This document shows, one piece after another, positions 4,199 through 30,196 of a stretch of DNA of 64,000 nucleotides. Source of the DNA: Deltaproteobacteria bacterium. Lineage in GTDB: Bacteria > Desulfobacterota > Syntrophorhabdia > Syntrophorhabdales > Syntrophorhabdaceae. The stretch spans positions 62,001 through 126,000 of the forward strand of contig JAKLET010000006.1 of assembly GCA_022711595.1 (NCBI GenBank), written 5' to 3'. The notes below the pieces were generated by a model that had not been told where the DNA came from, made no database searches, and worked only from the letters and a program-made list of their open reading frames with translations. Both the position numbers and the translations under genes were made by a program. Each line of letters opens with the position of its first letter. The first letter of the stretch is position 1.

Positions 4199-4533
4199 GC
4201 TAAAACACGCCGGAGATCAATCCAGTCAGCTGCGTGATGTCCTTGCGGGATGACGCATGCTGCACGCTGAGACTCACTCTCTCGGCAACTGCAGCCCCAG
4301 GGCTGGCACAAGATATCACAGTGGTGGTCGACGGCAGAGCAAAGTGTAAGGGACGAGGAACTCATTAATGACGTGCGTAATACATCGTTTATGGCGAGCC
4401 AGCTCCTGTTCGTGTGGAAAAGGAGGATCGCGGGGATAAGACCATCACCTAAATCCGGAGGAGATACAGGACGAAGGTGCTGTGAAATCTCCCACACTTC
4501 AGCCTGTGCGGAAGTACAGCAAAAGGAGGTTCA
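4199..4533. other. Intergenic stretch without recognisable gene
   Basis: I find no convincing coding frame, RNA or repeat on either strand here. Only the AAAGGAGG ribosome binding site of the channel gene at the right end is recognisable. Confidence 0.5.
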
Positions 4534-4935: not shown

Positions 4936-5189
4936 CGCGAAGATCCTAAAAGGCCAGATTGCAAAGACTATGTGGCGGCAGGGGAGCGAATGATGACATG
5001 ATTCACACTAGCTATGGCAGATAGCCTGACGATGAGCTCATGGCCCAAACCGGTCTCATCTGCAACGAATTAGAGGTCGAAAGAGGTCGGAACATGAGGT
5101 CAGGGCCTGTGAACTTTGGCAATCACGCCGGCGCCCCACCAAATTCTTTGAACCGGCGCTGTGCATCTCAGACACGGGAGGGTTAGAAC

Positions 5190-7599: not shown

Positions 7600-7799
7600 C
7601 GGATCGGCAGGTGATTGCACGAGGTAGCGACTTTGAAAGGCTTCCCATTCACGTTGCCATAACAAGTATTTGAGGTGTATCAGCCAACTTTCCCCTTGCA
7701 AACCTCACCCAATTTCCAGACAATATGGTCGGTACAGGGGCCAGTAATTTCACAATTTCATAGGCGCATCGGTCGTCCCATCCATATCCAGGAGGCTCC

Positions 7800-8609
7800 A
7801 TGCGTCTTGCGCCACGGCAGGTTCTTCTTTTCCTTTCGATCTTCTTTCTTTTCACGATCCCAGTCTTTTCCGGTCCCCTCGAAGACTGTGCGGAATACGC
7901 TCAGCTCGGCATCCCCGGACAGGAAGGAGATCTCCTCTGCCGCCCCGGCCATCTCCTCGCCCATCATCCCGTCCGCAAAACGCCCATCTGGGTCATTGAG
8001 CGCCTTACCGCGGAAAAGGCGACCAGCACAGTGGTGCCGCGGGAAGAGGGGTCATTCCGGATTGACCCCGGCCTGAAGAAGGGAAGACGCGCAGGACTCT
8101 CTGACTACCGGAAAAGCGGTTACGACCGTGGTCACATGGCACCGGCCGCCGACATGCGCTGGGACAAACAGGCGATGATCGAGTGCTTCTACCTCTCCAA
8201 CATGGTTCCCCAGGTGGGCAAGAAAATGAACCAGGGGATCTGGAAGGCCCTCGAGGAGCTCGTCCGCACCTGGGCCATAGACAGGGGCGAGCTCTTTATC
8301 TATACCGGTCCCATCTACGAAGGCCGGACCACAAAGACGATCGGGAAGAACAAGGTTGCGGTTCCCTCCCGCCTGTACAAGATCGTCTATGACCCCGGCA
8401 GACAGGACGCCATAGCCTTCATCATGCCGAATGAGGCCCTCAGGACGGGAGATATGCCACTCTACATCGTTACTGTAAGGGATGTTGAGGAGAGGACCGG
8501 GCTCGATTTCCTCTCGAGCTTGGAGACTGCAGGACAGCATAGAGACCACCAGGGCCGACAGACTCTGGCAATAGGAAAGGGATCAGACTATAGGCAGACG
8601 ACGTGGTAG
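7800..8609 (+). CDS. Exported DNA/RNA non-specific endonuclease (NucA-like), frameshifted C-terminus
   Basis: A 269-residue protein with a signal peptide (MRLAPRQVLLFLSIFFLFTI) and a betabeta-alpha-metal nuclease domain. The catalytic DRGH motif (His about residue 112) is followed by MAPAAD, and SNMVPQ and a downstream MNQG region (Asn metal ligand) are present. Such enzymes cut DNA and RNA outside the cytoplasm using Mg2+. The last 27 residues are aberrant: after LSSL the frame shifts. The normal ending, LQDSIETTRAD and a stop at 8572-8574, is readable in the +1 frame, and a second copy of that ending lies at 11901-11993. Activity may survive because the catalytic core is intact. Confidence 0.85.
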   Translation: MRLAPRQVLLFLSIFFLFTIPVFSGPLEDCAEYAQLGIPGQEGDLLCRPGHLLAHHPVRKTPIWVIERLTAEKATSTVVPREEGSFRIDPGLKKGRRAGLSDYRKSGYDRGHMAPAADMRWDKQAMIECFYLSNMVPQVGKKMNQGIWKALEELVRTWAIDRGELFIYTGPIYEGRTTKTIGKNKVAVPSRLYKIVYDPGRQDAIAFIMPNEALRTGDMPLYIVTVRDVEERTGLDFLSSLETAGQHRDHQGRQTLAIGKGSDYRQTTW

Positions 8610-8757
8610 TAGGAACACCGATGCCTGCCGCAGCAGAGGAAAGATTGCGGTCAATACCAACGAAACGGAAGGCCTAAAGGTCCGGACGGGCGACCTTCTC
8701 TGCACCACCGATGGTGGCGTCCACAACATCACCGGGCAGTTCCGGCTCATTGGTTTG
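8595..8757 (+). pseudogene. Fused remnants of DUF6765 3' end and C92-like gene 5' end
   Basis: Positions 8595-8609 repeat the last 15 bases of the DUF6765 gene at 13007-13021, with one difference. Positions 8669-8757 encode EGLKVRTGDLLCTTDGG and ITGQF, matching the start of the papain-fold protein at 13059. No start codon or downstream part remains. This is the decayed first copy of the nuclease-DUF6765-C92 module, in which nearly all of DUF6765 has been deleted. Confidence 0.8.
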
Positions 8758-8791
8758 TCGACTGCGGACATACTTAAGGGGTGTTCATGAG

Positions 8792-10279
8792 ATGGATGTG
8801 AAGCGAGCCATTTCTTACATATTCTTTGTAATGATTCTATCGCTGACCATGCAGGGCATTGCTTATCCCTCGCCCTACCAGGGGAGTACTGGTCATGGTC
8901 GTGATATTAAGTCGATATTAGGGAATAAAGATCTAGATGAATTATATAAATTGGTGAGTACCACGGTAGATCAAGAGCTTCCCCAGATCATGAAAGAAAA
9001 ATTCGGTATTAATCCCGGATACAACCACAGAATATTCGGGCATTGGGGGTTTGAAGGAGCCATACCTTTTGATGTTGAGCCATATAAGGAACCCTTATCG
9101 AAATATCCCAAGGAAGAAATCATCGGAATATGGAGAGAAACGGTTAATAGACTGACATTCAGAGCGCAACAAATGACAGGACTGCCACGAAGACAAGCGA
9201 AGGGTTTAGTTGGTCTCATATACAATACCCACCTGTTAGGGGATCTGAAACCCGATCCCAAAACAAACAAGATTATCGAACCGCTGCAGCATCTCGTCCC
9301 TGAACGAATGAATCAAGAGCTAAAAAAGAATCTACACAGAATGTATGGCAATAATAGCTTAAAGGTCCAAAAGATTAGTGAAGAGCTTGATTCACTGAAG
9401 AAGGTTAAAGACCCACAGAAATATGCACAGATGGCCTTGGACATTCTAAAAAGACACGACCTGGGTGGGAATTTATCTGTCAAACTTGGAAGAGTTGCGG
9501 AGCAATTGTCAATACCTGTCGCCGCCGCAAGTGTCGACTCCAAGGAGCCGGTTAAGAAGGTGGAAAACGAAGCCCCTCAAAAAGCTTCAAGATCTTCAGA
9601 AACCAAGAACCCCTTGGATGTGAAGAAGGAAACCCCCAATAGCAAGATTCTCAAAGCAACAGAACGTTCAAAGCTAGAGATGAAAGCGATGAAAAGCCCT
9701 TGGAAATTCTCGAAGCTGATCAAATGGGTTTTTCGGTCATCAGCCTTTTTTTCCATCATAGTATCGGGATATACTGTGACCGCAGAAATCTATGATGCAA
9801 AAATGGCAGGTAAGGAGATCCACCCTTCACGTCTTGTATTAAGAGCATTCGTAGGATTTGCCGGCGGTTTAGCTGGTGGTTTCTTGCTGGGTATTACCTT
9901 GGGGTTCTTGTTCTTTTGGTTTCATCCCGCTGCTGTTACCGCAGGTATTATTGGTGCTGCTATCGGTGGTATGTTAGGAGCAATTGGCGCAGAATGGCTT
10001 TTCGAGCTAATAATGCCAAACAAAGGATTAGGCTATATCATACTAGATATCTTGATCGGGGGGGTATTTGGGTCAACCGTAGGTACTGTTGTTGGGCTCA
10101 TTCGAGGATTATACAAAACCCCTCCGATAGAGATCTCAGGCTTCTGGAGAACGCTGTGGGAGATCTTGACGTTTCCTTTCGCTCTAGTAGAAAGTTGTTT
10201 AACGGGTGCTATATGTGGATTGGTTTTGGGAGGTTTTGCGGGATCAACGCTTTTTTTTGTCATGTTTACCGTGATGTGA
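8792..10279 (+). CDS. Exported multi-TM protein with glycine-zipper C-terminus, unknown function
   Basis: From the ATG at 8792 (AAGGGGTG upstream) it encodes about 495 residues. The first 25 form a signal peptide ending near GIAYPSP. A mostly helical soluble part follows, with a striking HRIFGHWGF segment near residue 73 and LIYNTHLLGD near residue 140. The latter recalls the His/Asp motifs of helical zinc hydrolases (PLC or S1/P1 type), but this is only a resemblance. A charged Lys-rich linker leads to four or five membrane segments full of GxxxG/GG patterns (GFAGGLAGGFLLG, GAAIGGMLGAIG). I do not recognise the family. Its composition is more AT-rich than the flanking nuclease module, which suggests separate acquisition. 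Confidence 0.7.
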   Translation: MDVKRAISYIFFVMILSLTMQGIAYPSPYQGSTGHGRDIKSILGNKDLDELYKLVSTTVDQELPQIMKEKFGINPGYNHRIFGHWGFEGAIPFDVEPYKEPLSKYPKEEIIGIWRETVNRLTFRAQQMTGLPRRQAKGLVGLIYNTHLLGDLKPDPKTNKIIEPLQHLVPERMNQELKKNLHRMYGNNSLKVQKISEELDSLKKVKDPQKYAQMALDILKRHDLGGNLSVKLGRVAEQLSIPVAAASVDSKEPVKKVENEAPQKASRSSETKNPLDVKKETPNSKILKATERSKLEMKAMKSPWKFSKLIKWVFRSSAFFSIIVSGYTVTAEIYDAKMAGKEIHPSRLVLRAFVGFAGGLAGGFLLGITLGFLFFWFHPAAVTAGIIGAAIGGMLGAIGAEWLFELIMPNKGLGYIILDILIGGVFGSTVGTVVGLIRGLYKTPPIEISGFWRTLWEILTFPFALVESCLTGAICGLVLGGFAGSTLFFVMFTVM

Positions 10280-10353
10280 AATACATTTCTTGTCTGGAGA
10301 CGATGAGTGTCGTTACCTTCTTTCGATTGGTAATCTCCAGCTCTCAACTCGTG

Positions 10354-10508
10354 GGTGAAACGAGAGATTTTTCCCTACAAACCGATGCCTGAAATATCGC
10401 AACTGCAACAGCCTGAAAATACCTTGCAAATTCCCCGTGCCTGATAGACAATTACCTATATCAAGGCGGGTTAAACCCACAGACAATTGATGCATCAGGG
10501 CCTTCAGG
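10354..10508. repeat. Diverged intergenic repeat, copy A
   Basis: About 150 bp shared with 16403-16549. Both contain the words CGATGCCTGAAA, CAACAGCCTGAAA, GGCGGGTTAAA and CATCAGGGCCTT in the same order, with substitutions and small indels. Copy A follows the multi-TM gene. The function is unknown; it may be a recombination scar of the module duplication. Confidence 0.65.
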
Positions 10509-10529
10509 TCAACAGGACGGGGTGTCCTC

Positions 10530-10946
10530 ATGGCTAAATCTGGCAAGGAAGACTCTATCATCCGGGAGATCAACGATCACCCGCTAACACGTGAGGAAGT
10601 CATCGCGTTCGTTACGGAAGTGGTGAAATTGTCCCCTGAAGACAGGGATTTTGAGGGGCATGCTATCACTGCTGTCCGTGTGCTTGAGGGAAATCCCGAT
10701 AAAGCCCTCTCAATCGTGTTCAGGATGGAAGCGCTTGCCCGGCTGATTCACCAGGGGCTTCTGCCTGGTTGGTGCAGGGAGCCTGACAGTCCTGAAGGCC
10801 CCTGGAGTGTCAGGCTGCCGGTCATCGCGGCGGCGGGCGTGACCCGGGTATATCTCGATGGGAATGGCAAGGTCGCTTTTGACAAGGACGAGCTGCTGAA
10901 AGCAACTTTCATCCAGGGAAAAGAGGAATATGAGGAGATCGAATAG
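10530..10946 (+). CDS. Hypothetical protein
   Basis: A 138-residue soluble, acidic protein that I do not recognise. It has no signal peptide or membrane segment. An N-terminal helical region (REINDHPLTREEVIAFVTEV) is followed by an R/E-rich helix and a short beta-hairpin-like segment (VTRVYLDGNGKVAF). It starts at an ATG 20 bp after repeat copy A; the ribosome binding site is weak (GACGGGGTG). It stands alone between the multi-TM gene and the HEPN-like gene in the hotspot between module copies 1 and 2. Confidence 0.6.
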   Translation: MAKSGKEDSIIREINDHPLTREEVIAFVTEVVKLSPEDRDFEGHAITAVRVLEGNPDKALSIVFRMEALARLIHQGLLPGWCREPDSPEGPWSVRLPVIAAAGVTRVYLDGNGKVAFDKDELLKATFIQGKEEYEEIE

Positions 10947-11244
10947 CGGGGGATACATGGTTAATGGGGACAAGTTCGGCAACCCTATACCTATCGTCGC
11001 CAACGGGTGGTGGCGTGCGGCACGGACTTGACCTGAACGCCGGAATACCTATTTCTCCAGAAGAGGGGAGGCTTTTCTGCAACCTCATCCTGTCGTATGT
11101 AACATATCTCATGGCAGAGCATAGCCGATTGTGCTCGTGAAGGACTATGACGAAAGGGCGGCAAGGGAAGAGGGGAAACACAAGAACGCTTCTGGCAAAG
11201 ACGCGTCTGAAGGGATGGAATGCAGGGGCTAGAACTGAGAAGCT

Positions 11245-11901
11245 ATGGGGCGCTCGTCTTTCCTTCGTTACACAGGTACGATTGAGTTGAGTGCAGATGA
11301 AATCATGAAAAGCGTGAAGGATTCCTGGGAGAAATTCCTCCATCCCGGGACACTGCGTGCAAACCTGCTGTTGATTTCTCTCTTTATTGCCGCCTTCGAG
11401 ATGTTCAAGGACTCTGTGATTCAAAAACCTGAGAGTTTCTTCTGTCACGGTTTTAACAAAGATGGTCTTATCATCAGCGAAACCTACCGGAACGAAGTTT
11501 TGTCGAAGTCCAAGAGCCGCCTCTATGCCTCGCTTCTATGGTTCCGGGAAATGGGTGCCATCGACGACGCGGATCTTCAAATCTTTGATGATATTCGGAG
11601 ACACCGGAACGAAGTCACCCATGAACTGTCGGATTTCTTGGGGAATGCAGAGCGCAATTTCGATATCACCAAGTTTCAGGCGTTGATCGAGTTGCTCTCA
11701 AGGATCGAGAACTGGTGGTTCATGAACATCGAGCTGGCAATCGACCCAGAAATGCTTCCGGATGGGGCGGATCCGAAAGACGTCATACCGGCAGTGCTCA
11801 TGAACTTGAGGCTGATGTTGGAGATCGCTTTGACAGATGAATCGGAGGCCAGTTACTATTATGAAGCCTTCAAAAAGGGTAGTACCCCTGAGGCAGGCTG
11901 A
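11245..11901 (+). CDS. HEPN-like protein, candidate RNase or antiphage factor
   Basis: A 218-residue soluble helical protein of unknown family. The segment RRHRNEVTHEL carries RNEVTH at residues 121-126, the Rx4H motif (with Asn after Arg) that marks catalytic HEPN ribonucleases. HEPN proteins cut RNA in toxin-antitoxin, abortive-infection and CRISPR ancillary systems. Whether this one is active is inference from the motif alone. No obvious MNT or antitoxin partner is adjacent. Its stop at 11901 touches the start of the decayed nuclease ending of module copy 2. The upstream 298 bp (10947-11244) contain no gene I can support. Confidence 0.55.
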   Translation: MGRSSFLRYTGTIELSADEIMKSVKDSWEKFLHPGTLRANLLLISLFIAAFEMFKDSVIQKPESFFCHGFNKDGLIISETYRNEVLSKSKSRLYASLLWFREMGAIDDADLQIFDDIRRHRNEVTHELSDFLGNAERNFDITKFQALIELLSRIENWWFMNIELAIDPEMLPDGADPKDVIPAVLMNLRLMLEIALTDESEASYYYEAFKKGSTPEAG

Positions 11902-11993
11902 AGGAGAAGACCGGGCTTGACTCCTTATCGAGCTCCGAGAAAAAATTGCAGGACAGCATAGAGACCACCAGGGCCGACGGACTCTGGCAATAG
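11901..11993 (+). pseudogene. 3' remnant of the NucA-like nuclease gene
   Basis: This stretch reads KEKTGLDSLSSSEKKLQDSI, then ETTRADGLWQ and a stop, and matches the unshifted C-terminus of the nuclease gene at about 8490-8574. It shows that a full nuclease gene once stood here upstream of DUF6765. It also documents the ancestral reading frame that the intact copy has lost. Confidence 0.8.
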
Positions 11994-12040
11994 AAAAGGG
12001 ATTACGGTATATTTGCTGGAACAAGGGCAAGGAGGCCACC

Positions 12041-13021
12041 ATGGACATTGAGTTCCATTACCACATGACCTACATCGTCGCAAGGAGGGCGGGTTTCAGC
12101 TCCAACGACTCATCCGTCATCGCCTACTCCTCCCAGTACACTGATGACAACACCGAGCATCTCTACATCAGCCAGGACACCCCCGACGCGTACGAGAGCT
12201 ACATCAGTCAGACCGTCAACATCCTCAAGCCCCAGAAGGAGCTTATGCGGATATACCCGGTGTTTCACTTCCTCCCCGGCTCCCTCACAGAGATAGCCGG
12301 CGAGTCAGCGAGGCGCGCCGATGGGAAGCTCCACCTCATGAACACGATCCCCAACAGCTTGAGCGCGCAGAAGGTCCTCACAGAGGCCCTCGGCCTCGAT
12401 GACCTTTACCGCATAGGGATAGCAACCCACACCTTCGCCGACACGTTCGCCCACCAGAACTTCGTGGGGGCCGATGACGGCTTCAACGACATGGCGGGGC
12501 TGCTGGAGAAACTCATCCCCAGCGTGGGACACGCGGACGCAAAGCACAGCCCCGACATACCGAACGAGATCTGGCAGGATAAGCGCCTCGTGTTGAGTCA
12601 CGCCTCCATCGATAACAAGCCACGATTCCTCGATGCGGCGGGATGTCTTTTCGATCTCTACCGTGGCCGCTCTGTCGACGATGATGCGAGAAGGACCCTG
12701 CTTGCCGACCTCGGCAATGCCATAGGGGACAGTACGAGCACGAAGACCCGGCGCGTCGGGAACTACAAGGCCCTCATCGGGGGAGAGTTCACGAAGTACG
12801 ACGAGGACGCCTGGTTCAAGGAGGCGGTGGGTTTCACTACGGCGGACACATCCGGTGGCGGGGACACCGTGCCGGGGACGGAGACGCGGTGGGTGTGGAA
12901 GGACAATTACAAAGAAAGCCACTGGTTCAAGTTCCAGGAGGCGGTCAAGGCACACCAGGCGTACGTCCTGACGAGCATTGTGCGCCCCATATACGCAACG
13001 ATGGAGCAGACGACTTGGTAG
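12041..13021 (+). CDS. DUF6765 family protein
   Basis: A 326-residue soluble protein starting MDIEFHYHMTYIVARRAGF, the signature opening of DUF6765, where His residues precede an all-helical domain. Further His/Asp clusters (GIATHTFADTFAHQNF about residue 130, LSHASID) resemble metal ligands of helical zinc hydrolases such as phospholipase C. The biochemical role is unknown. There is no signal peptide. It sits between a nuclease remnant and a papain-fold enzyme, 37 bp before the latter, in the one nearly complete copy of the module. Shine-Dalgarno AAGGAGG precedes the ATG. Confidence 0.75.
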   Translation: MDIEFHYHMTYIVARRAGFSSNDSSVIAYSSQYTDDNTEHLYISQDTPDAYESYISQTVNILKPQKELMRIYPVFHFLPGSLTEIAGESARRADGKLHLMNTIPNSLSAQKVLTEALGLDDLYRIGIATHTFADTFAHQNFVGADDGFNDMAGLLEKLIPSVGHADAKHSPDIPNEIWQDKRLVLSHASIDNKPRFLDAAGCLFDLYRGRSVDDDARRTLLADLGNAIGDSTSTKTRRVGNYKALIGGEFTKYDEDAWFKEAVGFTTADTSGGGDTVPGTETRWVWKDNYKESHWFKFQEAVKAHQAYVLTSIVRPIYATMEQTTW

Positions 13022-13058
13022 CAAGAACCCCTGCGCCCGTCGGAGTGGAGAAGAGATC

Positions 13059-13646
13059 ATGGTCCACACTTACGAGATAGAAGGCCTGAAGGTCCAGACG
13101 GGTGACCTTCTCTGCACCACCGACGGCGGCGGTGCGGACATCACCGGACAGTTCTGGCGCCTCATCGGAAAGCTCATACCGGGGGACGTGGACCACATCG
13201 TCGTTTATGTCGGCGCCGGGGGAAGGTGCGTTGAGGCAGGCGCGAAGGGGAAGGTCATCACCTTCAACGTTATTGGCAACACGTGGAACGCCAACGAGAT
13301 GAAATCCGAGAGAGGCCCCTTTGTCGATATGCTCTACGGTGCTGCATATCCTCTCCTGTCCGTGGATATTGACCCGGCCAGGGCCGTGGCGATCCGGGAG
13401 GACGTTGCCGCATACTGCATCAGGCAGGCGGAGCTGAACAAGCCCTATAACCTCAACTTCTTCGATTCAGCTACAGAGGGATCCTTCTACTGCAGCCAGC
13501 TGGCATACAGGGCGTACCTGAGAAACGGGATCGATCTCAACACGGGCGCCTCGGTCTGGAGCATACCGGGGACAGAAAAGATCATGCTTCCGCAGGAGAT
13601 ATGGGACGGGTGTGTGCATGAGAGCGTGGGCGTGCATGAGGAATAG
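13059..13646 (+). CDS. Permuted papain-fold enzyme, YiiX/C92 (NlpC/P60-like)
   Basis: A 195-residue protein with the permuted papain architecture. GDLLCTT is near the N-terminus, VDHIVVYVG at about residue 45 holds the presumed catalytic His, and SFYCSQLAYRAY at about residue 145 holds the presumed nucleophile Cys. Relatives act as amidases or hydrolases on peptidoglycan or lipids. There is no signal peptide. I chose the ATG at 13059 behind GGAGAAGAG; an earlier in-frame start would run into DUF6765. A decayed 5' fragment of the same gene lies at 8669-8757, so it belongs to the repeated module. Confidence 0.75.
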   Translation: MVHTYEIEGLKVQTGDLLCTTDGGGADITGQFWRLIGKLIPGDVDHIVVYVGAGGRCVEAGAKGKVITFNVIGNTWNANEMKSERGPFVDMLYGAAYPLLSVDIDPARAVAIREDVAAYCIRQAELNKPYNLNFFDSATEGSFYCSQLAYRAYLRNGIDLNTGASVWSIPGTEKIMLPQEIWDGCVHESVGVHEE

Positions 13647-13772
13647 TGATTTAGCATAAGAGCGCCTGCTGAGACTGGGTTGACTTCCTGAAAGCGAGAA
13701 TATCCATAGTTTTCAAAACATTTTAGACTTCAACTGGCAATCAATAGATTGTTCCTTGCAAAAAATCTGTAA

Positions 13773-15161
13773 TTGAAGGAAAATATTAAAAAATCAAACG
13801 CATGGGGAGGCGTAGCTGGAAGCCGCGCAAAATCATCTACTTTGTTCAAAAGCATCCCTTACGGTTCATGGATGATTACTGGCAACAGCATAATCAAAGA
13901 TTTTCTTTTTGTTTTCGACCCGCCTAGTCTGCTTGCTTTACAGGATCGGTTTTCGCGGGAAGCAGTTCCCGCGCTCATGCATCTTCGAGAAAGCTCCGGC
14001 ATAACTACCCAGTTAGTCTTGCCAAGATATATATTTGACATCTCTGCCCTTAAAGATTCCAAGCTTATGAAACTCCTCAAGGTAATAACAGAAGGCCCTC
14101 CCCCTATCTTCAACTTTGACAAAGTGGTCGCAAAAAGACTACGGAAAGACTGTGGTGAATTGCTCGAAAGCAAACGAGAATTGGCTCTTCTATCTCTGTC
14201 GGAAAGTATGGTAGCAGACGGAATAGTGACCGGCTCTAAACTACTTATCCAAAGTCAGTATGTCCTGTATCAATACCACCGGATACGGGTAATTCCTGTT
14301 GACGAGTTTCTCGACTTAATCAGTGTTATTGCCGTGGGTAACTCCGTTTTCTGGTCGACGGCATACGCTGGGGACATAGGATTTGACGCTTTCTATCAAA
14401 TGACCCATTGGAAAGCCAGCAGATTGTTCAAGTGGTGGGCGCGTTCAATCTCTGGGAGGGAAAAGAAGGAGTCGGTCGAAAACCTGAGAGCCGCGTTGCT
14501 TAATAGGTTTCCATACATCCTCTATTCACGTGACATGGTCCGGTTTTATCAGCTTCATAGGGACTATTATATACGGAATAATCAGCGTCAAATGTATGGA
14601 ACAGCCATCGGGTTCTATATCAATACATTTTATCTCATGCTTTGGGGAATGCTTGACCATCTGACCATCATAGCGAAACATGCAAGAGATATGAGAATAA
14701 GTGAGAGGTACTGCGGTATCCGTAGCAAAGATTTTTGGAAGGAATTCAGAAAGATCGAGAATGGTCTGTATAATTACATAAAGGGAAAAGACATAAGCGA
14801 TTGGATCAACATTATGGCGGACATGCGCCATCAAGCAGCTCATAGCATTATTCCAATTCCCTCATTACTTGTAAATGAAACGACCGACTCAAAGAAAAGT
14901 GATGACGAAATAATTGAGATACTGAAGAATGAAAAATCTAGTCTTTACAGAATTTTTGATTCTCAAACTATCGAAGCTCTGCAACCCTCGTGGATAGCTG
15001 ACTGGAAATGGAAGAAAATGGAAATTGTTGCGCCTGGAATGATCAGAATTACGAAACCAGACGGAACAGGTTATATGCGAGATCCTGTCGTGAGTGTCGA
15101 CCATGATTTATCTAACCTTATAGCTGTCATGGACGCCTTTCTAGTAAAGCTGTTTAATTGA
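13773..15161 (+). CDS. Hypothetical protein with HEPN-like motif
   Basis: A 462-residue protein of unknown family. It is soluble apart from one modestly hydrophobic helix near residue 285 (FYINTFYLMLWGML). Near residue 350 it reads MADMRHQAAHS, with RHQAAH at 352-357, again an Rx4H HEPN-like signature. The N-terminal 120 residues could be a separate domain. The only in-frame start before the body is TTG at 13773, so the true start is uncertain. Codon use is AT-richer than the module genes beside it. It is followed after 170 bp by an Mrr-like nuclease gene, so the pair may form one defence unit (inference). Confidence 0.6.
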   Translation: MKENIKKSNAWGGVAGSRAKSSTLFKSIPYGSWMITGNSIIKDFLFVFDPPSLLALQDRFSREAVPALMHLRESSGITTQLVLPRYIFDISALKDSKLMKLLKVITEGPPPIFNFDKVVAKRLRKDCGELLESKRELALLSLSESMVADGIVTGSKLLIQSQYVLYQYHRIRVIPVDEFLDLISVIAVGNSVFWSTAYAGDIGFDAFYQMTHWKASRLFKWWARSISGREKKESVENLRAALLNRFPYILYSRDMVRFYQLHRDYYIRNNQRQMYGTAIGFYINTFYLMLWGMLDHLTIIAKHARDMRISERYCGIRSKDFWKEFRKIENGLYNYIKGKDISDWINIMADMRHQAAHSIIPIPSLLVNETTDSKKSDDEIIEILKNEKSSLYRIFDSQTIEALQPSWIADWKWKKMEIVAPGMIRITKPDGTGYMRDPVVSVDHDLSNLIAVMDAFLVKLFN

Positions 15162-15334
15162 ATGATATTCCAACAATCAAACGTTAGCATTAGTCATTTA
15201 CGTGGCGGATATGGGTGAAAACCGCAAAAATGGTCAACAAAATGCAGCACCGGAAAGGGATTCCACTTCTATCAATCCCTGCCGGTAAGCCTGACTATTG
15301 TACAGAGACGCGTGGTCAAAGGAGGTGACTCAAA

Positions 15335-16300
15335 TTGACTGCACCAAGATGGAAAGAGTTTGAGGACGCAGTAATGAAGTTTGTTGCCGCGCTTGACGCA
15401 AAGGCAAAAGTCACGGCTAATGTTAGGCTACCCGACACCCACACCTCTAAGCCGAGGCAAAGGGACGTATGGATTGAGGCCAAGGTCTGCAACCACTTTC
15501 CACTAAAAGTGCTGATAAGCTGCAAGAGGTTAAAAAGAAAAATAGACCAGCAAGACATCGACGCTTTCAACGGCGAGTTAATTTCATCGGAAGCCCGCCT
15601 AGGTGTACTATACGCCTATTCGGGCTTCACTTCTAATGCGATGGAGAAAGCAAAAAAGCTTGGGGTGAGTTGCTGCAGACTATTTGACAATGAACCGGCC
15701 GATATTCCACGAAATTTGGTATTTATCGATAGTTATTGCTGTACGTCCCGCATATCCGTTTCGGTAATGGCACCCCTTGATCGCCAATGGAATTTGACAA
15801 CTTGGAATGAACTGTTCTCTCTTCAATGTGAGGACGCAGGCTTACCTTTGTCTGTAATCGACGCTATCAGCCGGTCTTATCGCGACGGCGAAAAAGAAGT
15901 CGTAAGTAAAGCAAGCGAAACCTTTTTTCCATTGAATTGGGTGAGGGTGCTCGAATGTATCAAAGAGGAGCCTAATAAGAAGACGATAAAAATCATAATC
16001 CGTGGTAGTTGGAACGTGTACGAGGGCCGGCTTAAGGCTCATTTATTGAAGGGTTCTTATAACTTCTCCAGCCAGGAATTCCTGGGTTCTATCAGTACAC
16101 CATCTGTTGACACCCAAAGCTCCCATCCTGGACCGGGGTGGACTTTGCTGAAGGTACTTCCCGAAAAGTCGACCATGAAATCGATTCGGGGCCTATTCAT
16201 TATGTCGGGCGGTAATGTGAAAGAATCGCTCCTCGAGCAACTCGGTCCGAGACCGATAACGATAGAGGAAATTAACGAGTCGTTAATGAACCCTGTATAA
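15335..16300 (+). CDS. Mrr-like PD-(D/E)XK endonuclease-domain protein
   Basis: A 321-residue protein. The first about 110 residues match the restriction-endonuclease (Mrr) fold: an opening helix WKEFEDAVMKFVAAL, QRDVWIEA with a candidate metal-binding Asp, LKVLISCKR with the catalytic Lys, and the DIDAFNGEL helix. The acidic residue before xK is Ser here (SCK), a variant seen in this superfamily. The C-terminal 200 residues are unrecognised. Start is TTG at 15335 with GGAGG 9 nt upstream. It probably targets DNA as a restriction or defence nuclease. It may pair with the HEPN-like gene before it. Confidence 0.7.
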   Translation: MTAPRWKEFEDAVMKFVAALDAKAKVTANVRLPDTHTSKPRQRDVWIEAKVCNHFPLKVLISCKRLKRKIDQQDIDAFNGELISSEARLGVLYAYSGFTSNAMEKAKKLGVSCCRLFDNEPADIPRNLVFIDSYCCTSRISVSVMAPLDRQWNLTTWNELFSLQCEDAGLPLSVIDAISRSYRDGEKEVVSKASETFFPLNWVRVLECIKEEPNKKTIKIIIRGSWNVYEGRLKAHLLKGSYNFSSQEFLGSISTPSVDTQSSHPGPGWTLLKVLPEKSTMKSIRGLFIMSGGNVKESLLEQLGPRPITIEEINESLMNPV

Positions 16301-16402
16301 CGACTTGGGGTCACCGAATCTGCGTGAAAGGATAACCGGGGATGGTCATGTTACACCCATAATCTAGGACTCGCCATTATTTGTCGTATGCAAGATTCGT
16401 AA

Positions 16403-16549
16403 GTGAAATGGGAAACTTTTTCCCGCAAAACCCGATGCCTGAAACACCGCAACAGCCTGAAATTGTCCTGCTAATTCTCCGTATCTGATACACAATTTGC
16501 TATAACGGGGCGGGTTAAATCCACGCACAATTCATTCATCAGGGCCTTG
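16403..16549. repeat. Diverged intergenic repeat, copy B
   Basis: Second copy of the about 150-bp element described at 10354-10508, same orientation. It follows the Mrr-like gene and precedes the DUF6765 remnant by 36 bp. The rest of 16301-16788 shows no gene apart from that remnant. Confidence 0.65.
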
Positions 16550-16584
16550 AGACGGGTTAGTTTTAGGTTATCACAACCACCTCA

Positions 16585-16671
16585 GCGGTCAAGGCGCACT
16601 AGGCATATGTGCCGAGCTGTAGTAGCATCGTGCGGCCCATATATGCGACGATGGAACAGACGACGTGGTGA
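16585..16671 (+). pseudogene. 3' remnant of a DUF6765 gene
   Basis: The stretch encodes AVKAH, a TAG stop, AYV, a short divergent patch and then SIVRPIYATMEQTTW with a stop. It matches the last 27 codons of the DUF6765 gene at 12041-13021 with a 6-nt insertion and one internal stop. It is the third trace of the module in this window. Confidence 0.8.
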
Positions 16672-16788: not shown

Positions 16789-18735
16789 TCAGAGTAGCTT
16801 GTTGATAGCCGCAAATAAAGTTTCGAATCGCTTTAGCGTATCTTTATCTAATTCTTTAGGAGGGTTGGCCGCAAAATTAGACGCGACCAAGTAATGATTG
16901 AAACCCCCGCTGGGCCTGATCTTAATCCCAGTTTTGTCGATGTAGCGGTTTAACCGATCAACTATACGGTCACCTGGAGGTAGGTCGGTTTCAGAAACAG
17001 AAGTGCCGAATGTCTTATTAAATCTTTCCAGATAGAATTCGGGTTTGAAGAGGTCCTCCATATCGGAGGGCACCCCATCTGCTCGGGAGGCCTTCCGATC
17101 CCTGAACAGAGAAATGTTGAGCAGCATCTTGGCCGGAATAATCTTCTCCTTGACCAGATCCATCAGTTTTTGTTCTGAAGCACCGCGATAATCGTGAAGT
17201 ACCGCGAGTTTCAATCCATTCGCACCAAGCAGTGCGATAAACGTGACAACCTTATCAAGGCCACCAACAGGGACAATGACAATATCGCCCCGAAGCCGTG
17301 TCCTATTCTGGTCTTCCAAGATTGCGGATAAGGCTTGAAGGTAAATGAGATCAGAAGGGCCTTCAACCAGAAGGTTGTGCTTTGAGATGAAAAGGTTTTG
17401 AGCAATTGTCCAGCCGAGTGCAGCCTGCAACGGGAACAACGTGCGGGGGTCGGATCCTGATACACTGTTAGAGACTACGGTTCCTACGTTCGGCTGATCC
17501 TCCACCATCCGTACTTGGCGTAACCTGTCAGAATGAACCATGAAGGGCGAGTGGGTAGTGTAGAGTACCTGATGTTTTGCTGACAGCTCATCTATGTAAC
17601 GAAGGAGATCATTCTGCGCTAATGCATGGAGTGACAAACCCGGCTCGTCAAGGAGAAGGATGAGCTGTCCTTGGCCTGCCGCATCGATCTGCTGTTGCAC
17701 GCTATCAAACCAGACAAGAAAACTGAAGAACCAGATGAATCCCCTACTTCTTTGTTCAAAAGGAGTACTGACCCGATGTCGTCGGTTCTTGATCCGGAGA
17801 TAAAGGTTGGAGCCATTGTTGTACGGTGGAGAATCTGTTGGGTCTTGCTTTATATCAACTTCGACGTCCAGGTCTTCGTTTTGCTTCCAGAACTTCATAA
17901 TTTGATCCGTAAGCTTAATCGAAACAGCTTCTATTCGTGCCTTGAGTTTTTCGTAGCCTTCGGGGTCAGTAAATTCATCAACTGATATCCGCGCCATTCG
18001 TAATAATGCCAGAATCGCCCGGTGCTTTGGCTCAAGATTCTGATTATTCTTAATGCGACTGGCCAGGTCCGGAAGATTTATCTTGCTCGGCAATAGTTCA
18101 TATTCGCTGAAATAGAGGAATTGCGGAATTCTTGGTTTCAACCATTGCCATACTTCCCACTGCACTATCGATGTCCATTGAGTTGCCGCCACACGTTTTT
18201 CTATTCCATCTCGAAACGCCGTATCTTCTTCTGTGAGGCTGACTTCCTTCAATATTTCAGGAATGGAGCGTACCGACCGGGCATTCTTGATTGCTGCTCG
18301 AGAATCAGAACTCAGACCCTCCGTGGCAACCAGAGATGCTAATACAGGCGATTCATCAACAGTTAAAACGATCATTAAATGGTTATCGTATTTGTGGTTT
18401 ATTGTGAATTCAAAGCCCGGCTTCAGATGGGTGTGTACCACAGAATTGAGTTCGGCAATTTCTTTATCATCAAGACGATACGTCAGCTCTGCCACAATCG
18501 ACGGATTTTCTTCGTGCTGGTCCAAATACGTGGAGAGTTCTTTTCTCGGATAGTCGTTTATAGGGTCATATTCTGCTTCCCCCAAAGCGTCTGTTGCTTT
18601 CTGCAAGGCTTGTAGGAAAACAGTTTTCCCGGCCTCATTCATACCGACCAGCACCGTGACCTCGGTATCAATCGGCACGGTCTGTGGCTCGTTAATGGAC
18701 TTGAATGGTCCTACTTTCGCTGATACAAGAAGCAT
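16789..18735 (-). CDS. OLD-family ATPase/TOPRIM nuclease
   Basis: A 648-residue protein with an ABC/SMC-like ATPase split around a coiled insert. Walker A GMNEAGKT is at residues 31-38 and Walker B LILLLDEPGLSLHA at about 360-373, followed by the THSPFM switch. A TOPRIM domain starts with LLVEGPSDL at about 453 and continues with VLHDYRG near 520. OLD proteins are DNA nucleases used against phages; the GajA subunit of Gabija is one example. No UvrD-like GajB is adjacent, so this looks like a stand-alone class 1 OLD. The start is well supported by AAGGAGGGCGG. It is divergent from the type I restriction operon. Confidence 0.85.
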   Translation of the reverse strand: MLLVSAKVGPFKSINEPQTVPIDTEVTVLVGMNEAGKTVFLQALQKATDALGEAEYDPINDYPRKELSTYLDQHEENPSIVAELTYRLDDKEIAELNSVVHTHLKPGFEFTINHKYDNHLMIVLTVDESPVLASLVATEGLSSDSRAAIKNARSVRSIPEILKEVSLTEEDTAFRDGIEKRVAATQWTSIVQWEVWQWLKPRIPQFLYFSEYELLPSKINLPDLASRIKNNQNLEPKHRAILALLRMARISVDEFTDPEGYEKLKARIEAVSIKLTDQIMKFWKQNEDLDVEVDIKQDPTDSPPYNNGSNLYLRIKNRRHRVSTPFEQRSRGFIWFFSFLVWFDSVQQQIDAAGQGQLILLLDEPGLSLHALAQNDLLRYIDELSAKHQVLYTTHSPFMVHSDRLRQVRMVEDQPNVGTVVSNSVSGSDPRTLFPLQAALGWTIAQNLFISKHNLLVEGPSDLIYLQALSAILEDQNRTRLRGDIVIVPVGGLDKVVTFIALLGANGLKLAVLHDYRGASEQKLMDLVKEKIIPAKMLLNISLFRDRKASRADGVPSDMEDLFKPEFYLERFNKTFGTSVSETDLPPGDRIVDRLNRYIDKTGIKIRPSGGFNHYLVASNFAANPPKELDKDTLKRFETLFAAINKLL

Positions 18736-19202
18736 TTCCGCCCTCCTTGATTCTATTTGTGACGATTACATTATCTCTATAATTTGCTGCTGTAGTCGTG
18801 TCAGATGCGGAGACTTAAGATGTAGGGACCCTTGACGTCAATAGTCTATCGCAGAGGGTAGAAGGTTGTCAATTATGCGATATTATTCTCGTACCTGATA
18901 ATGTGACACAGGCGCGAAAGCATGTACCGAACTTGCCGTGCCACCCCCTTGTCACTCCCCATCTACAATAAACGTGAAATTTTCGGCCGAATCCTGTACG
19001 ATATCGGTGAAGCTCTCCAGTAATTTCAACGTACGGTAAACATCGGAGCCTTCACAAGGGGTTGAAAGGGGGATTCCTGATGAAATACTGCGGCACCGTT
19101 GTGGCCTGCCTGCACTATGAACAGGCTCCCTCTGCACCGGATCTTCACCCGGCATCTTGTAACTTCCAGTATCAACGAACTTCCACACGCGGAGCCTGCT
19201 GA
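18736..19202. other. Divergent intergenic region between OLD and hsdM
   Basis: This 467-bp gap must hold the promoters for two divergent transcripts. I see no persuasive coding frame. Short open frames on the minus strand lack ribosome sites and family resemblance. No clear operator palindrome stands out. Confidence 0.4.
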
Positions 19203-21215
19203 ATGAATAATTTCAACGAGAAAACCAGCTTCATCTGGTCCGTCGCGGATCTCCTTCGCGGACCATACCGCCCTAACCAGTACAAGGATGTGATGCTTCC
19301 ATTGACCGTCCTGAGACGCCTGGATTGCGTTTTGGAGCCCACCAAGACAAAAGTCCTCAAGGAGCAGGAAAGGCTCTCAGGGGGCAAGGTAAAGGACATA
19401 GGACCTATTCTCTGTCGCGCCACCGGGATGTCTTTTTACAACACCAGCCTTTTCACGTTCGAGAAGCTCAAGGGTGATCCCGGTAACATTGCGGCCAACC
19501 TCGTCAACTACATCAAGGGTTTTTCCACCCGGGCCCGGGAGATCATCGAACACTTCGGTTTTGAAGAACACATCGCCAAACTTGAGAAGGCGGACCGCCT
19601 GTATCTCGTGGTATCAAAGTTCTGTGACATAGACCTCCACCCGAATGTCGTGTCGAACCTCGAGATGGGGTACATCTTTGAGGAACTCATCAGACGATTC
19701 AACGAGGCATCGAACGAGGAGGCCGGCGATCACTTCACGCCACGCGAGGTCATCCGCCTGATGGTGGACCTTCTTTTCCTCCCGGACAATGATATCCTCA
19801 CCACGAAGGGCATTGTTAAGACACTCTACGACCCTGCCTGCGGCACGGGTGGCATGCTGTCCGTATCTGAAGAGTACGTCCGCGAGCTGAACCCCGATGC
19901 TCGACTGGAAGCGTTCGGCCAGGATTACAACGACCAGGCCTATGCGATATGCGGGTCCGACATGATGATCAAGGGACAGGACATCGGGCACATCGCCTTC
20001 GGTAACAGCTTCACCAATGACCACTTCCCGAACCACAGGTTCGAGTACATGCTTGCGAACCCTCCTTTCGGGGTAGAGTGGAAGCCGGAAGCGGACGTCA
20101 TCAAGCGAGAACACGATGAGCAGGGATTCGGAGGCCGCTTTGGGGCAGGGCTACCCCGCATCAATGACGGTTCCCTTTTGTTCCTACTACACATGATCAG
20201 CAAGAGGAAGGACCCGAAGGAGGGCGGTACCCGCCTAGCCATCGTTTTCAACGGTTCCCCCCTCTTCACGGGAAGCGCCGGCTCCGGGGAGAGTGACATC
20301 CGTCGATGGATCATCGAGAACGACTGGCTTGAGGCCATTGTGGCCCTCCCAGACCAGCTTTTCTACAACACCGGCATATCCACTTATCTCTGGATCGTAA
20401 CGAACCGGAAGGAGCCGAAACGCAAGGGCAAGATACAGCTTGTCGACGGCACATCCTTCTTCAAGAAGATGCGCAGGTCCCTGGGGAACAAACGTAACGA
20501 GGTCTGTGAGGACCAGCGCGGGGATATCACGCGGCTATATGGGGATTTCAAGGAAAGCGAGCACGTCCGCATCTTCGACAACAAGGCCTTCGGATACAGG
20601 CGCATCACGGTGGAGAGGCCTTTGAAACTCAACTTTGCCGTTGATGAGGGGCGGCTTGCCCGCCTGAAAGAAGCGACCGCGTTTGCAGGCCTCGCATCCA
20701 GCAAGAAGCGCAAGGACGTCAAGGGAATGGAGGCTGAGATCGAGGAAGGGAAGGAGCTCCAGGAGGCGATTTTAGAGGCCCTGTCGGGACTGGCGTCGAA
20801 GGGTGTGGTCAGGAAAAGGGAGGAGTTCTCCGACCTGATGAAGGGGGCCTTCAACAAGGCAGGCTTGAAGATCCCGGCCCCGTTGTTCAAAGCTATCTTG
20901 GGGGCTCTCTCGGAACGTGACGAGACGGCGGATGTCTGCACTGACGGGAAAGGCAACCCTGAGCCGGACCCCGACCTGCGTGACTATGAGAACGTCCCCC
21001 TTAAGGAGGATGTTGACGAATACATGAAACGCGAGGTCCTGCCTCATGTACCGGATGCATGGATAGACCACGAGAAGACCAAAGTGGGCTATGAGATCAA
21101 TTTCAACAGGTACTTCTATCGGTATGTACCCCCGAGGCCGCTCGAGGAGATCGAGGCGGACCTGAAGAAGATCGAGAAGGAAATAGCGGATATGCTGGCA
21201 GAGGTAACGGCATGA
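19203..21215 (+). CDS. hsdM: Type I restriction-modification methyltransferase subunit HsdM
   Basis: A 670-residue N6-adenine methyltransferase subunit. After an N-terminal helical HsdM_N domain (TSFIWSVADLLRGPY), the SAM-binding motif I is YDPACGTGGML (about residue 215). The catalytic motif IV is NPPF in YMLANPPFGVEW (about residue 285). The C-terminal 200 residues are a charged helical extension. It methylates the target adenine with HsdS giving specificity. The length exceeds typical 500-residue HsdM owing to that extension, as in the long HsdM clade. It overlaps hsdS by 4 nt (ATGA), so the genes are co-translated. Confidence 0.92.
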   Translation: MNNFNEKTSFIWSVADLLRGPYRPNQYKDVMLPLTVLRRLDCVLEPTKTKVLKEQERLSGGKVKDIGPILCRATGMSFYNTSLFTFEKLKGDPGNIAANLVNYIKGFSTRAREIIEHFGFEEHIAKLEKADRLYLVVSKFCDIDLHPNVVSNLEMGYIFEELIRRFNEASNEEAGDHFTPREVIRLMVDLLFLPDNDILTTKGIVKTLYDPACGTGGMLSVSEEYVRELNPDARLEAFGQDYNDQAYAICGSDMMIKGQDIGHIAFGNSFTNDHFPNHRFEYMLANPPFGVEWKPEADVIKREHDEQGFGGRFGAGLPRINDGSLLFLLHMISKRKDPKEGGTRLAIVFNGSPLFTGSAGSGESDIRRWIIENDWLEAIVALPDQLFYNTGISTYLWIVTNRKEPKRKGKIQLVDGTSFFKKMRRSLGNKRNEVCEDQRGDITRLYGDFKESEHVRIFDNKAFGYRRITVERPLKLNFAVDEGRLARLKEATAFAGLASSKKRKDVKGMEAEIEEGKELQEAILEALSGLASKGVVRKREEFSDLMKGAFNKAGLKIPAPLFKAILGALSERDETADVCTDGKGNPEPDPDLRDYENVPLKEDVDEYMKREVLPHVPDAWIDHEKTKVGYEINFNRYFYRYVPPRPLEEIEADLKKIEKEIADMLAEVTA

Positions 21216-22576
21216 AGTGGCGGACATATACGACATATAAGGATTCAGGCGTCGAATGGCTGGGAGAGATTCCAGAGCGCTGGAATGTATATCGACTGCG
21301 GATGTTGTTAAGAGATTTTGAAGGTATCAAAATAGGGCCATTTGGGAGTGCCCTTAAACTCGAATACATGCAAGACGATGGATACAAGGTTTATGGGCAA
21401 GAGCATTTGATAAACGCTGACTTCTCTTTGGGATACAAATATGTCGACGAGAACAAATTCAACGAGCTTATCATGTGCGAAATATTACCTGGAGACCTCG
21501 TCGTATCGATGATGGGGACCACCGGTAAATGCCAAGTTGTTCCTGAACATATTGAACGCGGTATAATGGACTCACACTTGTTAAGACTTCGCACAAACGA
21601 CTTGATATTCCCGTCCTATCTCGCTTCTCTTGTGGATGATTCTGATTACATCCGCCATCAGATAACCACCAATGGCAAAGGATCTATAATGGAAGGGCTT
21701 AACTCGTCCATTATAAAAGAGTTGCTAATCATGTTGCCCCCCCTGACAGAACAGCACACCATAGCCGCCTTCCTCGACCGAGAAACTTCCCGTATCGACG
21801 AACTCATCGCGAAGAAACAGCGCCAAATCGAACTCCTCCAGGAAAAGCGCTCCGCCCTCATCAGCCACGTCGTCACTAAGGGCCTCGACCCGAATGTGAA
21901 GATGAAGGACTCCGGCGTGGAGTGGTTGGGAGAGATTCCAGAGCATTGGAAGGTAAAAAAGTTGAAACATATAGTACAGGATAATCTGGCCAATGGCATC
22001 TTCAAGAAGAAGGATTCCTTTGGCTCCGGTGTGAAATTGATCAATGTGTACGATATATATCGTGATGATTTTTTCGTTCATTCCGCCAGCCTTGAACGTG
22101 TTGAGGTGGAACTCTCAGAGCAAAAAAAGTACGCTGTTTTTGCTGGCGACATATTCTTTGTACGTTCATCGTTGAAACTTGAGGGGGTTGGGCGCTCCGT
22201 ATGTGCTCTGGATATAGATGAGCCTACGGTATTTGAGTGCCATGTCGTCAGGACTCGTCCTAAGAGAGAGTTGGTCAACCCCAAGTATCTCATACACTAC
22301 CTAAACTCTGCTCCTACAATCAATCGACTTGTATCTTTGTCGAATAATGTGACGATGGCAACAATTGACCAAGATAAAATTAAGAACCTTGAAATTGTTC
22401 TGCCCCCTCGTACCGAGCAAGATCTGATGATGGCTTCTCTGGAACAAGATCTAGCATTTATGTACGATTTACGAAGTAGGATTCTTACGAGTATAGAAAA
22501 GCTCTGCGAATACCGCACTGCCCTCATATCCGCCGCCGTCACCGGCAAGATCGACGTCCGCGAGGAGGTTGCCTGA
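21212..22576 (+). CDS. hsdS: Type I specificity subunit HsdS
   Basis: A 454-residue protein with two target-recognition halves. Each half begins with the same element, GVEWLGEIPERW at about residue 11 and GVEWLGEIPEHW at about residue 232, and ends in a helical conserved region starting TEQ (about residues 173 and 395). This pseudo-dimer layout is the hallmark of HsdS, which dictates the bipartite recognition sequence. The TRD segments are AT-rich compared with the flanking repeats, consistent with TRD exchange. It overlaps hsdM (ATGA) and hsdR (TGATG). Confidence 0.92.
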   Translation: MKWRTYTTYKDSGVEWLGEIPERWNVYRLRMLLRDFEGIKIGPFGSALKLEYMQDDGYKVYGQEHLINADFSLGYKYVDENKFNELIMCEILPGDLVVSMMGTTGKCQVVPEHIERGIMDSHLLRLRTNDLIFPSYLASLVDDSDYIRHQITTNGKGSIMEGLNSSIIKELLIMLPPLTEQHTIAAFLDRETSRIDELIAKKQRQIELLQEKRSALISHVVTKGLDPNVKMKDSGVEWLGEIPEHWKVKKLKHIVQDNLANGIFKKKDSFGSGVKLINVYDIYRDDFFVHSASLERVEVELSEQKKYAVFAGDIFFVRSSLKLEGVGRSVCALDIDEPTVFECHVVRTRPKRELVNPKYLIHYLNSAPTINRLVSLSNNVTMATIDQDKIKNLEIVLPPRTEQDLMMASLEQDLAFMYDLRSRILTSIEKLCEYRTALISAAVTGKIDVREEVA

Positions 22577-25500: not shown

Positions 25501-25584
25501 AAATTCAGGGAAGCGGTGAGTCAGCGGCTGCAGAAGGAAATTTATGAACAGATGCGGAGGGAAGGGGACAGTGCAACCGAATAA
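22576..25584 (+). CDS. hsdR: Type I restriction subunit HsdR
   Basis: A 1002-residue restriction-translocase. An N-terminal PD-(D/E)XK nuclease (ELDVTLSL with the metal Asp, then VATVELKNQ with E-x-K, about residues 137-160) is followed by two RecA-like SF2 domains. Walker A HSAGSGKSNS is near residue 305, Walker B IIDEAHSSQ near 415, motif III FAFTATPK near 475, and the later helicase motif near 695 is VQTLSRLNRT. It pulls DNA and cuts at a distance when the target is unmethylated. All motifs look intact, so the R-M system should be active. Start ATG overlaps the hsdS stop as TGATG. Confidence 0.92.
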   Translation: MPADHKEIAFEAAIEHHLITSAGYEKGSPDAFDQERGLFPQDVVSFIQETQPKEWEYLSTIQKGKAEETLLDDLCRALNSEHEGCLSVLRHGFKCFGKTFHMAYFAPASGMNPDTLKLYQANRLTITRQLRYSSKHNNELDVTLSLNGIPVATVELKNQMTGQSWRNAVTQYKTDRDPADLIFQFKKRALVHFAVDTDEVYMTTRLSGKNTRFLPFNKGSNGGAGNPENPGNYRTAYLWEEVLERHSFLDILAQFIHLQVEEKKLGDRKVRVETMIFPRYHQLDCVRALVTGARSEGVGKNYLIQHSAGSGKSNSIAWLAHRLSSLHNDKDERVFDSVIVITDRVVLDQQLQNTIYQFEHKQGVVQKIDVDSAQLADALGSAVPVVITTLQKFPFVTEKVGELPMRRYAVIIDEAHSSQGGETATELKGVLAGAAIKKEAKAKAEEEGLPDYEEEILKAMAKRGKQPNISFFAFTATPKYRTMEVFGVPGPDGKPQPFHLYSMRQAIEENFILDVLKHYTTYKTYYRLIKSIENDPKVEKRKAARALARFMSLHSHNISQKTEVMIEHFRHFTMHKIGGRAKAMVVTSSRLHAVRYKQAFDKYILKKGYTGIKTLVAFSGTVVDPDVKDISYTEVTMNGGIREKELPERFGSEEYQVLIVAEKYQTGFDQPLLHTMYVDKRLAGIQAVQTLSRLNRTHAGKEDTFVLDFVNETKEILDAFQPYYEQTTVGEQAEAKQLYELQAKLDAQQVYYKDEVEEFSKVFYTPRVKQTPSDHARMNACIDPAVGRFKKLDEEAREEFRKTLIAFRNLYAFMSQVIPFQDSDLEKLYSYVRFLVAKLPREDRGPVYHFDDEVALKFYRLQKIGEGAIDLKAGEEQPISGPTSVGTGAAGGEMVELSRLIDILNDRFGTEFKPGDQLFFDSIKEDAMGDRSLRQAAHANTLENFGYVFTKALEGIFIDRMDQNEDITARFMNDGKFREAVSQRLQKEIYEQMRREGDSATE

Positions 25585-26809: not shown

Positions 26810-26924
26810 TAAGTCTGAGGTGCCGGGAAACCGCCAGGCTTTCAGTCTGAGCGCATTTTCGGGTATAGCGAATAGTCGTGTAGCGTCGTGTAGCACCCAC
26901 CCTTCAGAAAACGTCCCAGAGGCC

Positions 26925-28431: not shown

Positions 28432-28448
28432 CTTAACCTCAGCCGATA

Positions 28449-30195: not shown

Positions 30196-30196
30196 T

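Follow-up and report, generated by a model that had tools for sequence, protein, structure and literature searches.

Sequential displacement has been described for the immunity-gene arrays of the type VI secretion system (T6SS) of Vibrio cholerae, and homology-facilitated illegitimate recombination was proposed as its route (PMC5361080). The core defence hotspots (cDHS) of Pseudomonas aeruginosa are bordered by genes that are core genes in every isolate, and transfer by homologous recombination within these borders was suggested (PMC10250203); the integration hotspots of defence islands in Escherichia coli mostly hold mobile elements that encode integrases and often sit at tRNA genes (PMC10121019). 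We examined a 64-kb stretch of DNA (the window) within the 132-kb contig C55 of a bacterium of the Syntrophorhabdaceae (genome G000; 3.55 Mb in 58 contigs), where genes for a nuclease, a DUF6765 protein and a C92-like enzyme (together, the module) recur in fragments among cargo genes. The sequences lead us to favour, with modest confidence, the reading that in this group of uncultured anaerobes the trio is an accessory operon of Syntrophorhabdus and serves as an anchor for recombination in an island of variable, partly defence-type content, in which successive insertions of cargo left scars.

Three states of the module in the window

A sequence-only reading of the window had described the module in three states, and comparison of the region with the whole window by blastn bore this out: all repeats were detectable as nucleotide similarity, at levels well above chance (E 1e-24 to 1e-10). 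The nuclease tail at 8488-8583 is repeated at 11902-12002 (84% identity), the DUF6765 end with the C92 start at 8594-8746 is repeated without gaps at 13006-13158 (76%), and the DUF6765 end at 12941-13019 is repeated at 16585-16669 (76%). A fourth repeat, overlooked in that reading, pairs 10349-10507 with 16397-16551 (76%) and is the leader of a 138-aa open reading frame (ORF), ORF138. Unless marked otherwise, the features given below are on the + strand.

Copy 1 begins with the nuclease leader (7685..7799), which carries a sigma70-like TTGCAA-N17-GACAAT and forms the sharp left edge of the module. The gene that follows (7800..8592) encodes an Endonuclease_NS (NucA/EndoG-type) protein, assigned from Pfam and the DRGH motif and predicted to be exported from an N-terminal hydrophobic signal-like stretch. 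A 5-bp deletion between 8525 and 8526, found in no other copy, shifts the frame of the last codons, so that the nuclease ORF (7800-8609) continues into the DUF6765 stub and is terminated by the stop codon there. In the stub (8594..8610), recognised as a sequence repeat, the last 15 bp, CAGACGACGTGGTAG, remain of a gene otherwise lost, and the C92 start behind it (8641..8757) has no start codon, the ATG having become GCG at 8647. Copy 1 does keep its nuclease, as had been claimed, but is more damaged than was described, both in the frameshifted 3' codons and in the C92 stub without ATG.

Copy 2 agrees with the earlier description. It consists of a 5'-truncated nuclease 3' end (11902..12011; native stop at 11991-11993), a complete DUF6765 gene (12041..13021; Pfam E 3e-68, with conserved H/D residues and a model like the Zn-phospholipase C / S1-P1 nuclease fold) and a complete C92-like (YiiX/YaeF) gene (13059..13646), in which the motifs DVDH and YCSQL are kept and whose 3' flank is homologous as far as 13694. 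Copy 3 is, as had been stated, a DUF6765 end only (16585..16671): the last 86 bp, with an in-frame TAG stop, 76% identical to 12941-13019.

From left to right, damaged module 1 is followed by a 495-aa protein, the leader with ORF138, a 218-aa ORF and 5'-truncated module 2; thereafter come a 462-aa protein, an Mrr nuclease, a leader scar, the DUF6765 end, an OLD ATPase and a type I restriction system. Elsewhere in the same genome, contig C7 carries a scar in which a nuclease start, a C92 end and a DUF6765 end adjoin, and contig C30 carries a separate, lone C92 gene (68% identical).

The module and its borders in other Syntrophorhabdus genomes

The genus comparison covered 12 Syntrophorhabdus genomes, which are metagenome-assembled genomes (MAGs), and DUF6765 was present in seven of them. 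A nuclease C-terminus, DUF6765 and C92 follow one another in G005 (contig C36); the nuclease precedes DUF6765 in G010 (C180), and DUF6765 precedes C92 in G006 (C18), in G009 (C75) and again in G005 (C181, DUF6765 end only). DUF6765 of G003 is truncated at the 5' side and begins at codon 147. In G002 (L069/L070) an element resembling an insertion sequence splits the gene at about codon 200, with a short duplication of the target. The two halves, codons 1-200 and 197-326, end in GGTGGTCGGAAT-type repeats of the kind that insertion sequences carry; the C92 reading frame of this genome holds a stop.

The DUF6765 loci of the genus are similar as far as the stop codon and differ beyond it. After the stop, C92 is found in the window, G005 (twice), G006 and G009; DUF5677 and then a MauJ-domain protein in G010 (C180) and G003 (C57); Dsr1 (SIR2) in G010 (C114); a NACHT/pentapeptide protein in contig C7 of the window's own genome; a GYF-type ORF, then C92 and Gabija, in G002; and an OLD-type ATPase with type I restriction genes at window copy 3. 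Identity jumps at these edges. Between G003 and G010 it is 78-92% (about 87% as a whole) within DUF6765 and then 100% over ~700 bp of cargo, beginning no more than 17 bp from the stop codon; between G005 and G006 it is about 97-100% over most of DUF6765 (lowest 93%) and 85-91% in C92, with unrelated sequence thereafter. The C92 and DUF6765 trees have weak support, and G005 and G006 pair closely in DUF6765 and not in C92; trees so weakly resolved do not prove separate histories of the two genes.

The left module edge is sharp at window 7673-7687 and is common to four loci (the window, L067, L110 and L059), whose upstream DNA is unrelated. The right-hand border is the type I restriction-modification system HsdM, HsdS and HsdR (18939..25584, identified by PADLOC), which also borders the variable segment in G003 and G006; HsdM is 85-87% identical among the three, with homology from 18939-18945, and the 5-6 kb between module and HsdM are different in each. 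Two cargo segments of the window and one each of G006 and G010, four in all, stop instead at the ORF138 leader. A ParE-type toxin-antitoxin pair comes after the nuclease tail in G006 (C15), where homology stops at window 12011, the same base as in window copy 1; this base, at which L065 switches to a toxin-antitoxin pair, is the right edge of the copy 2 nuclease tail. Displaced copies are truncated at their 5' side and keep the 3' part, as seen in a few cases: window copies 2 and 3, the C7 DUF6765 end and the DUF6765 of G003.

Displacement of cargo or tandem duplication

What the sequences show are repeats, edges shared by loci with different cargo, jumps of identity at these edges and 5' truncation; from them we infer a recombination mechanism and an order of events. 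The module would lie at the left side of a variable segment closed on the right by the type I restriction genes or by the leader with ORF138, and would supply the sequence homology by which cargo is exchanged. Incoming DNA would pair with the conserved nuclease or DUF6765 on one side, the other side being joined through short homology or none; each such event would add new cargo and shift the 3' end of the old module downstream. The residue expected from repeated events would be a copy on the far left whose 5' end is intact, followed by a 5'-truncated nuclease tail-DUF6765-C92 and finally by a DUF6765 end alone. Sequential insertion of this kind (homology on one side, illegitimate joining on the other) would leave such a polarity of truncation and such jumps of identity where the module ends, and displacement fits better than random loss because the displaced copies are 5'-truncated and different cargo begins from the DUF6765 stop codon.

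Several points weigh against this reading. The mechanism is read from end products, and no recombination event was observed. The genus genomes are MAGs in which several contigs end within the module, so that some junctions could be assembly edges, and the blocks of 100% identity could come from shared metagenome reads or binning. Defence enrichment near the module is not statistically shown, PADLOC matches (E<=1e-8) being few among 77 ORFs close to the module as well as among 123 ORFs taken at arbitrary positions of the same genomes. The internal losses of copy 1 (the DUF6765 body and the 3' part of C92) go beyond what displacement alone explains.

The sequence-only reading had preferred a tandem duplication of one functional nuclease-DUF6765-C92 unit, whose copies then lost different genes. 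We regard this as unlikely, if still the best placed of the alternatives: the three-gene order does occur both in G005 and in the window, and in the window's own genome every one of the three genes survives in one copy that is intact or nearly so. Against it, the copies diverge from each other as much as from those of other species. Within a genome, the synonymous divergence (dS) is 0.44 for the two DUF6765 genes of G010 (G010a-G010b) and 0.42 for the two C92 genes of G005 (G005a-G005b), which lies within the 0.27-0.72 found between species and lends no support to a recent local duplication. The window stubs are about equally distant from all relatives, and copy 3 is closer to G005/G006 (82-84% identity) than to copy 2 (76%), which suggests that the window copies are not closest relatives. 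In addition, the cargo differs at the module edges, the ORF138 leader is duplicated as well, and the gene families do not co-occur in the loci sampled outside the genus.

DUF6765 outside the genus and further explanations

Outside Syntrophorhabdus we sampled 12 DUF6765 loci at family, order and phylum level, and 20 further loci drawn from 53 carriers among 395 genomes of the phylum. No relative of the nuclease or of C92 was found near DUF6765 in any of the 12 loci, nor in any of the 20; there DUF6765 is a single gene with unrelated neighbours. The order nuclease-DUF6765-C92 is repeated in other genomes within Syntrophorhabdus (G005 C36; partially in G010, G006 and G009) and in none of the 32 loci outside. 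The view that the trio is a general functional unit is not supported in that form, co-occurrence being absent from 12/12 and 20/20 of these loci. DUF6765 and C92 are likewise not constant neighbours: some DUF6765 genes of the genus have no C92 beside them, and sister genera (G036, G028) have relatives of C92 and of the nuclease without DUF6765.

In 8 of the 20 phylum loci (L145, L148-L153 and L157, all Desulfobacterota) and in one Nitrospirae locus (L033), DUF6765 adjoins a glycyl-radical-enzyme operon of a PFL-like enzyme, a radical-SAM activase and a ~150-aa protein, with families confirmed by Pfam for L148 only. No DUF6765 or C92 relatives were found in viral contigs and no C92 on plasmids; DUF6765 on plasmids comprises only distant relatives, on three plasmids of Vibrionaceae/Aeromonas. 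On these (L195, L196 and L197, ~4000-6070) a ~220-aa lipoprotein-like ORF and a ~90-aa ORF precede DUF6765, and the surroundings are variable islands that contain type I restriction, ThiF/E2/JAB or Fic genes. In the sister genus represented by G036 (L111, 7868-10019), a nuclease of 64% identity precedes genes for a membrane protein and a Zn-dependent phospholipase C, with restriction-like genes close by; the pairing is an interesting parallel, since DUF6765 resembles that fold.

These settings bear on the doubtful possibility that the trio itself is an undescribed anti-phage or inter-bacterial conflict system and the island its natural home. The neighbours of the module include Dsr1, Gabija, AbiEii, McrB-like, NACHT and type I restriction genes, and both the plasmid islands, with their lipoprotein-like and small ORFs ahead of DUF6765, and the G036 locus could be taken in its favour. 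PADLOC gives no match for DUF6765, however, and elsewhere in the phylum this gene has glycyl-radical-enzyme operons or housekeeping genes as neighbours; most genomes of the genus lack part of the trio, which is decayed in G002, and no defence enrichment near the module was shown. A combined form, which we rate about as improbable or slightly more so, would make DUF6765 a zinc phospholipase/nuclease-like effector with varying partners, in an undescribed conflict or anti-phage system whose operon doubles as recombination anchor of the island. Its partners, were this true, would be the exported nuclease and the C92-like hydrolase in Syntrophorhabdus, and the lipoprotein and small protein on the Vibrionaceae and Aeromonas plasmids. 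That partners of DUF6765 vary follows from its restriction/ThiF/Fic setting on plasmids as against the glycyl-radical-enzyme operon in many Desulfobacterota.

It is quite improbable that site-specific elements integrate at the DUF6765 3' end and duplicate it, in the manner of integrative elements at tRNA genes. The 15-mer CAGACGACGTGGTRR closes nearly every copy and cargo begins at its right edge, as this explanation would have it, but all 11 exact occurrences in the 12 genomes are DUF6765 ends and none lies at the far end of cargo; this restriction to DUF6765 ends leaves the model unsupported. Furthermore, no integrase was recognised in the window segment by ORF and domain annotation, and other scars consist of nuclease and C92 sequence. 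An artefact of MAG assembly, to which the several related contigs ending within the module might point, is very improbable, as the window lies within one 132-kb contig, the same junction types occur in other genomes, and repeats just 76-84% identical make collapsed or chimeric repeats unlikely.

Properties of the encoded proteins

Domains were called at Pfam gathering cut-offs and defence genes by PADLOC. The nuclease matches Endonuclease_NS (PF01223) over its full length (E 3e-51; 174.8 bits against a cut-off of 23), and GYDRGHMAPA, with the DRGH motif, is conserved in every alignment row covering the motif; it is most likely an exported non-specific nuclease. DUF6765 (PF20551) is likewise a full-length match above the gathering score (residues 1-312; E 3e-68; 231.4 bits). 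In its structure model (predicted local distance difference test, pLDDT, 77), all 16 structural rows listed by VIA-align have the Zn-phospholipase C / S1-P1 nuclease fold (Z 4.2-5.4), and Foldseek gave no significant match (E>=1). The alignment alone gives a conserved HxxxD...H pattern and further H/D residues, including invariant H130, D134, H138 and H164, and one plasmid DUF6765 matches PF00882 weakly (E 0.04). Judged by the model, DUF6765 is probably a metal-dependent hydrolase and most likely an intracellular zinc-dependent phosphodiesterase/phospholipase-like enzyme. DUF6765 was not found in the open literature searched.

The third protein is called C92-like only, because its Pfam score for PF05708 (24.1 bits; E 4e-5) is below the gathering cut-off of 27. 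DVDH and YCSQL, which hold the candidate His/Cys, are invariant in 9 sequences, and the structure model is poor (pLDDT 38); a cysteine amidase/hydrolase is most likely. Profile search found no sequence relatives of C92 or DUF6765 in the PDB. The ratio of nonsynonymous to synonymous divergence (dN/dS) ranges from 0.06 to 0.15 among DUF6765 genes, lies at 0.05-0.16 in most C92 pairs and is 0.12 between the nucleases of the window and G010, and these low values indicate that the intact genes are maintained by purifying selection.

Cargo genes and neighbouring DNA

The first cargo gene in the window, taken from the ORF list, encodes a 495-aa protein with a signal-like start and a glycine-rich membrane C-terminus (8792..10279), for which Pfam and PADLOC searches gave no match. 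The membrane C-terminal half is common to window 9602-10339 and L110 2163-2901 (G010) at 88% DNA identity, with unrelated N-termini, as in domain-swapped effectors. Genus comparison makes the leader (10349-10529) and ORF138 (10530-10946), together 10349..10946, a recurrent downstream companion of the module: ORF138 is found at high identity only in G000, G006 and G010, each time 2-5 kb downstream of the module on the same strand, with one further, distant match in G009, and the leader sits directly upstream of ORF138 in two other species too. The leaders of the nuclease (7685-7799) and of ORF138 (10360-10529) resemble each other, both with TTGCAA-N17-GACAAT; the similarity is suggestive only, for the leader-leader profile score is 22.9 against a column-shuffle maximum of 16.7, but the single-sequence score was reached by 3 of 150 random window stretches.

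The 218-aa ORF (11245..11901) remains as a fragment of its first 63 codons in G010 and G003. Beyond module 2 lie the gene for the 462-aa protein (13773..15161), without a family by Pfam or PADLOC; the Mrr-type restriction endonuclease gene (15335..16300; PF04471, E 9e-10); the ORF138 leader scar (16397..16560), a repeat of 10349-10507 from which the gene body is gone; and, on the - strand, the gene for an OLD/GajA-like AAA ATPase with TOPRIM (16789..18735; Pfam and PADLOC). Past the type I restriction genes, window 25544-36534 encodes a trypsin-like/TPR protein, a DUF4143 ATPase, a YhcG-type PDDEXK nuclease, a TPR-CHAT protein and a RhuM/Fic protein, and many short repeats are present at window 28450-47250.

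Comparison with known systems

If the cargo was displaced as we propose, the locus would show in detail how variable islands, partly of defence type, can turn over where no integrase is recognisable: the homology would come from an accessory operon present in several copies, and 5'-truncated scars would record former occupants. Such scars could serve to detect these islands in MAGs and to reconstruct the succession of their cargo. The analysis also sets what the data show apart from the claim, tempting but weak, that the three genes form a universal unit.

Taken singly, the nuclease is a regular Endonuclease_NS (NucA/EndoG) protein with the full domain, the DRGH motif and PDB relatives that include EndoG and the Anabaena/Serratia nuclease, and its genomic setting alone is unusual. 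DUF6765 weakly resembles the Zn-phospholipase C / S1-P1 nuclease fold in its structural rows and conserved H/D residues, but is without a significant sequence or Foldseek match and without a signal peptide, and has an extra C-terminal helical part.

As in the E. coli hotspots, the same place is occupied by different defence cargo, although here no integrase-bearing elements were recognised. With the cDHS of P. aeruginosa the locus shares variable defence-type content between constant borders and little recognisable mobility machinery; the border here, however, is accessory (7/12 genomes), multi-copy and fragmented, and thus no core-gene flank. The layout is also like that of the T6SS immunity arrays (PMC5361080) and the orphan 3' ends of Rhs loci. 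Unlike the T6SS arrays, the present locus has no secretion cluster that we could see, its anchor is the nuclease-DUF6765-C92 operon, and its cargo is of restriction/abortive-infection type and not effector-immunity pairs. In those arrays a conserved upstream anchor stays in place while new modules displace older ones, whose 3' ends stay as a downstream string; here too a conserved anchor stands upstream of different cargo, and, in the few cases available, 3' ends are kept and 5' ends lost.

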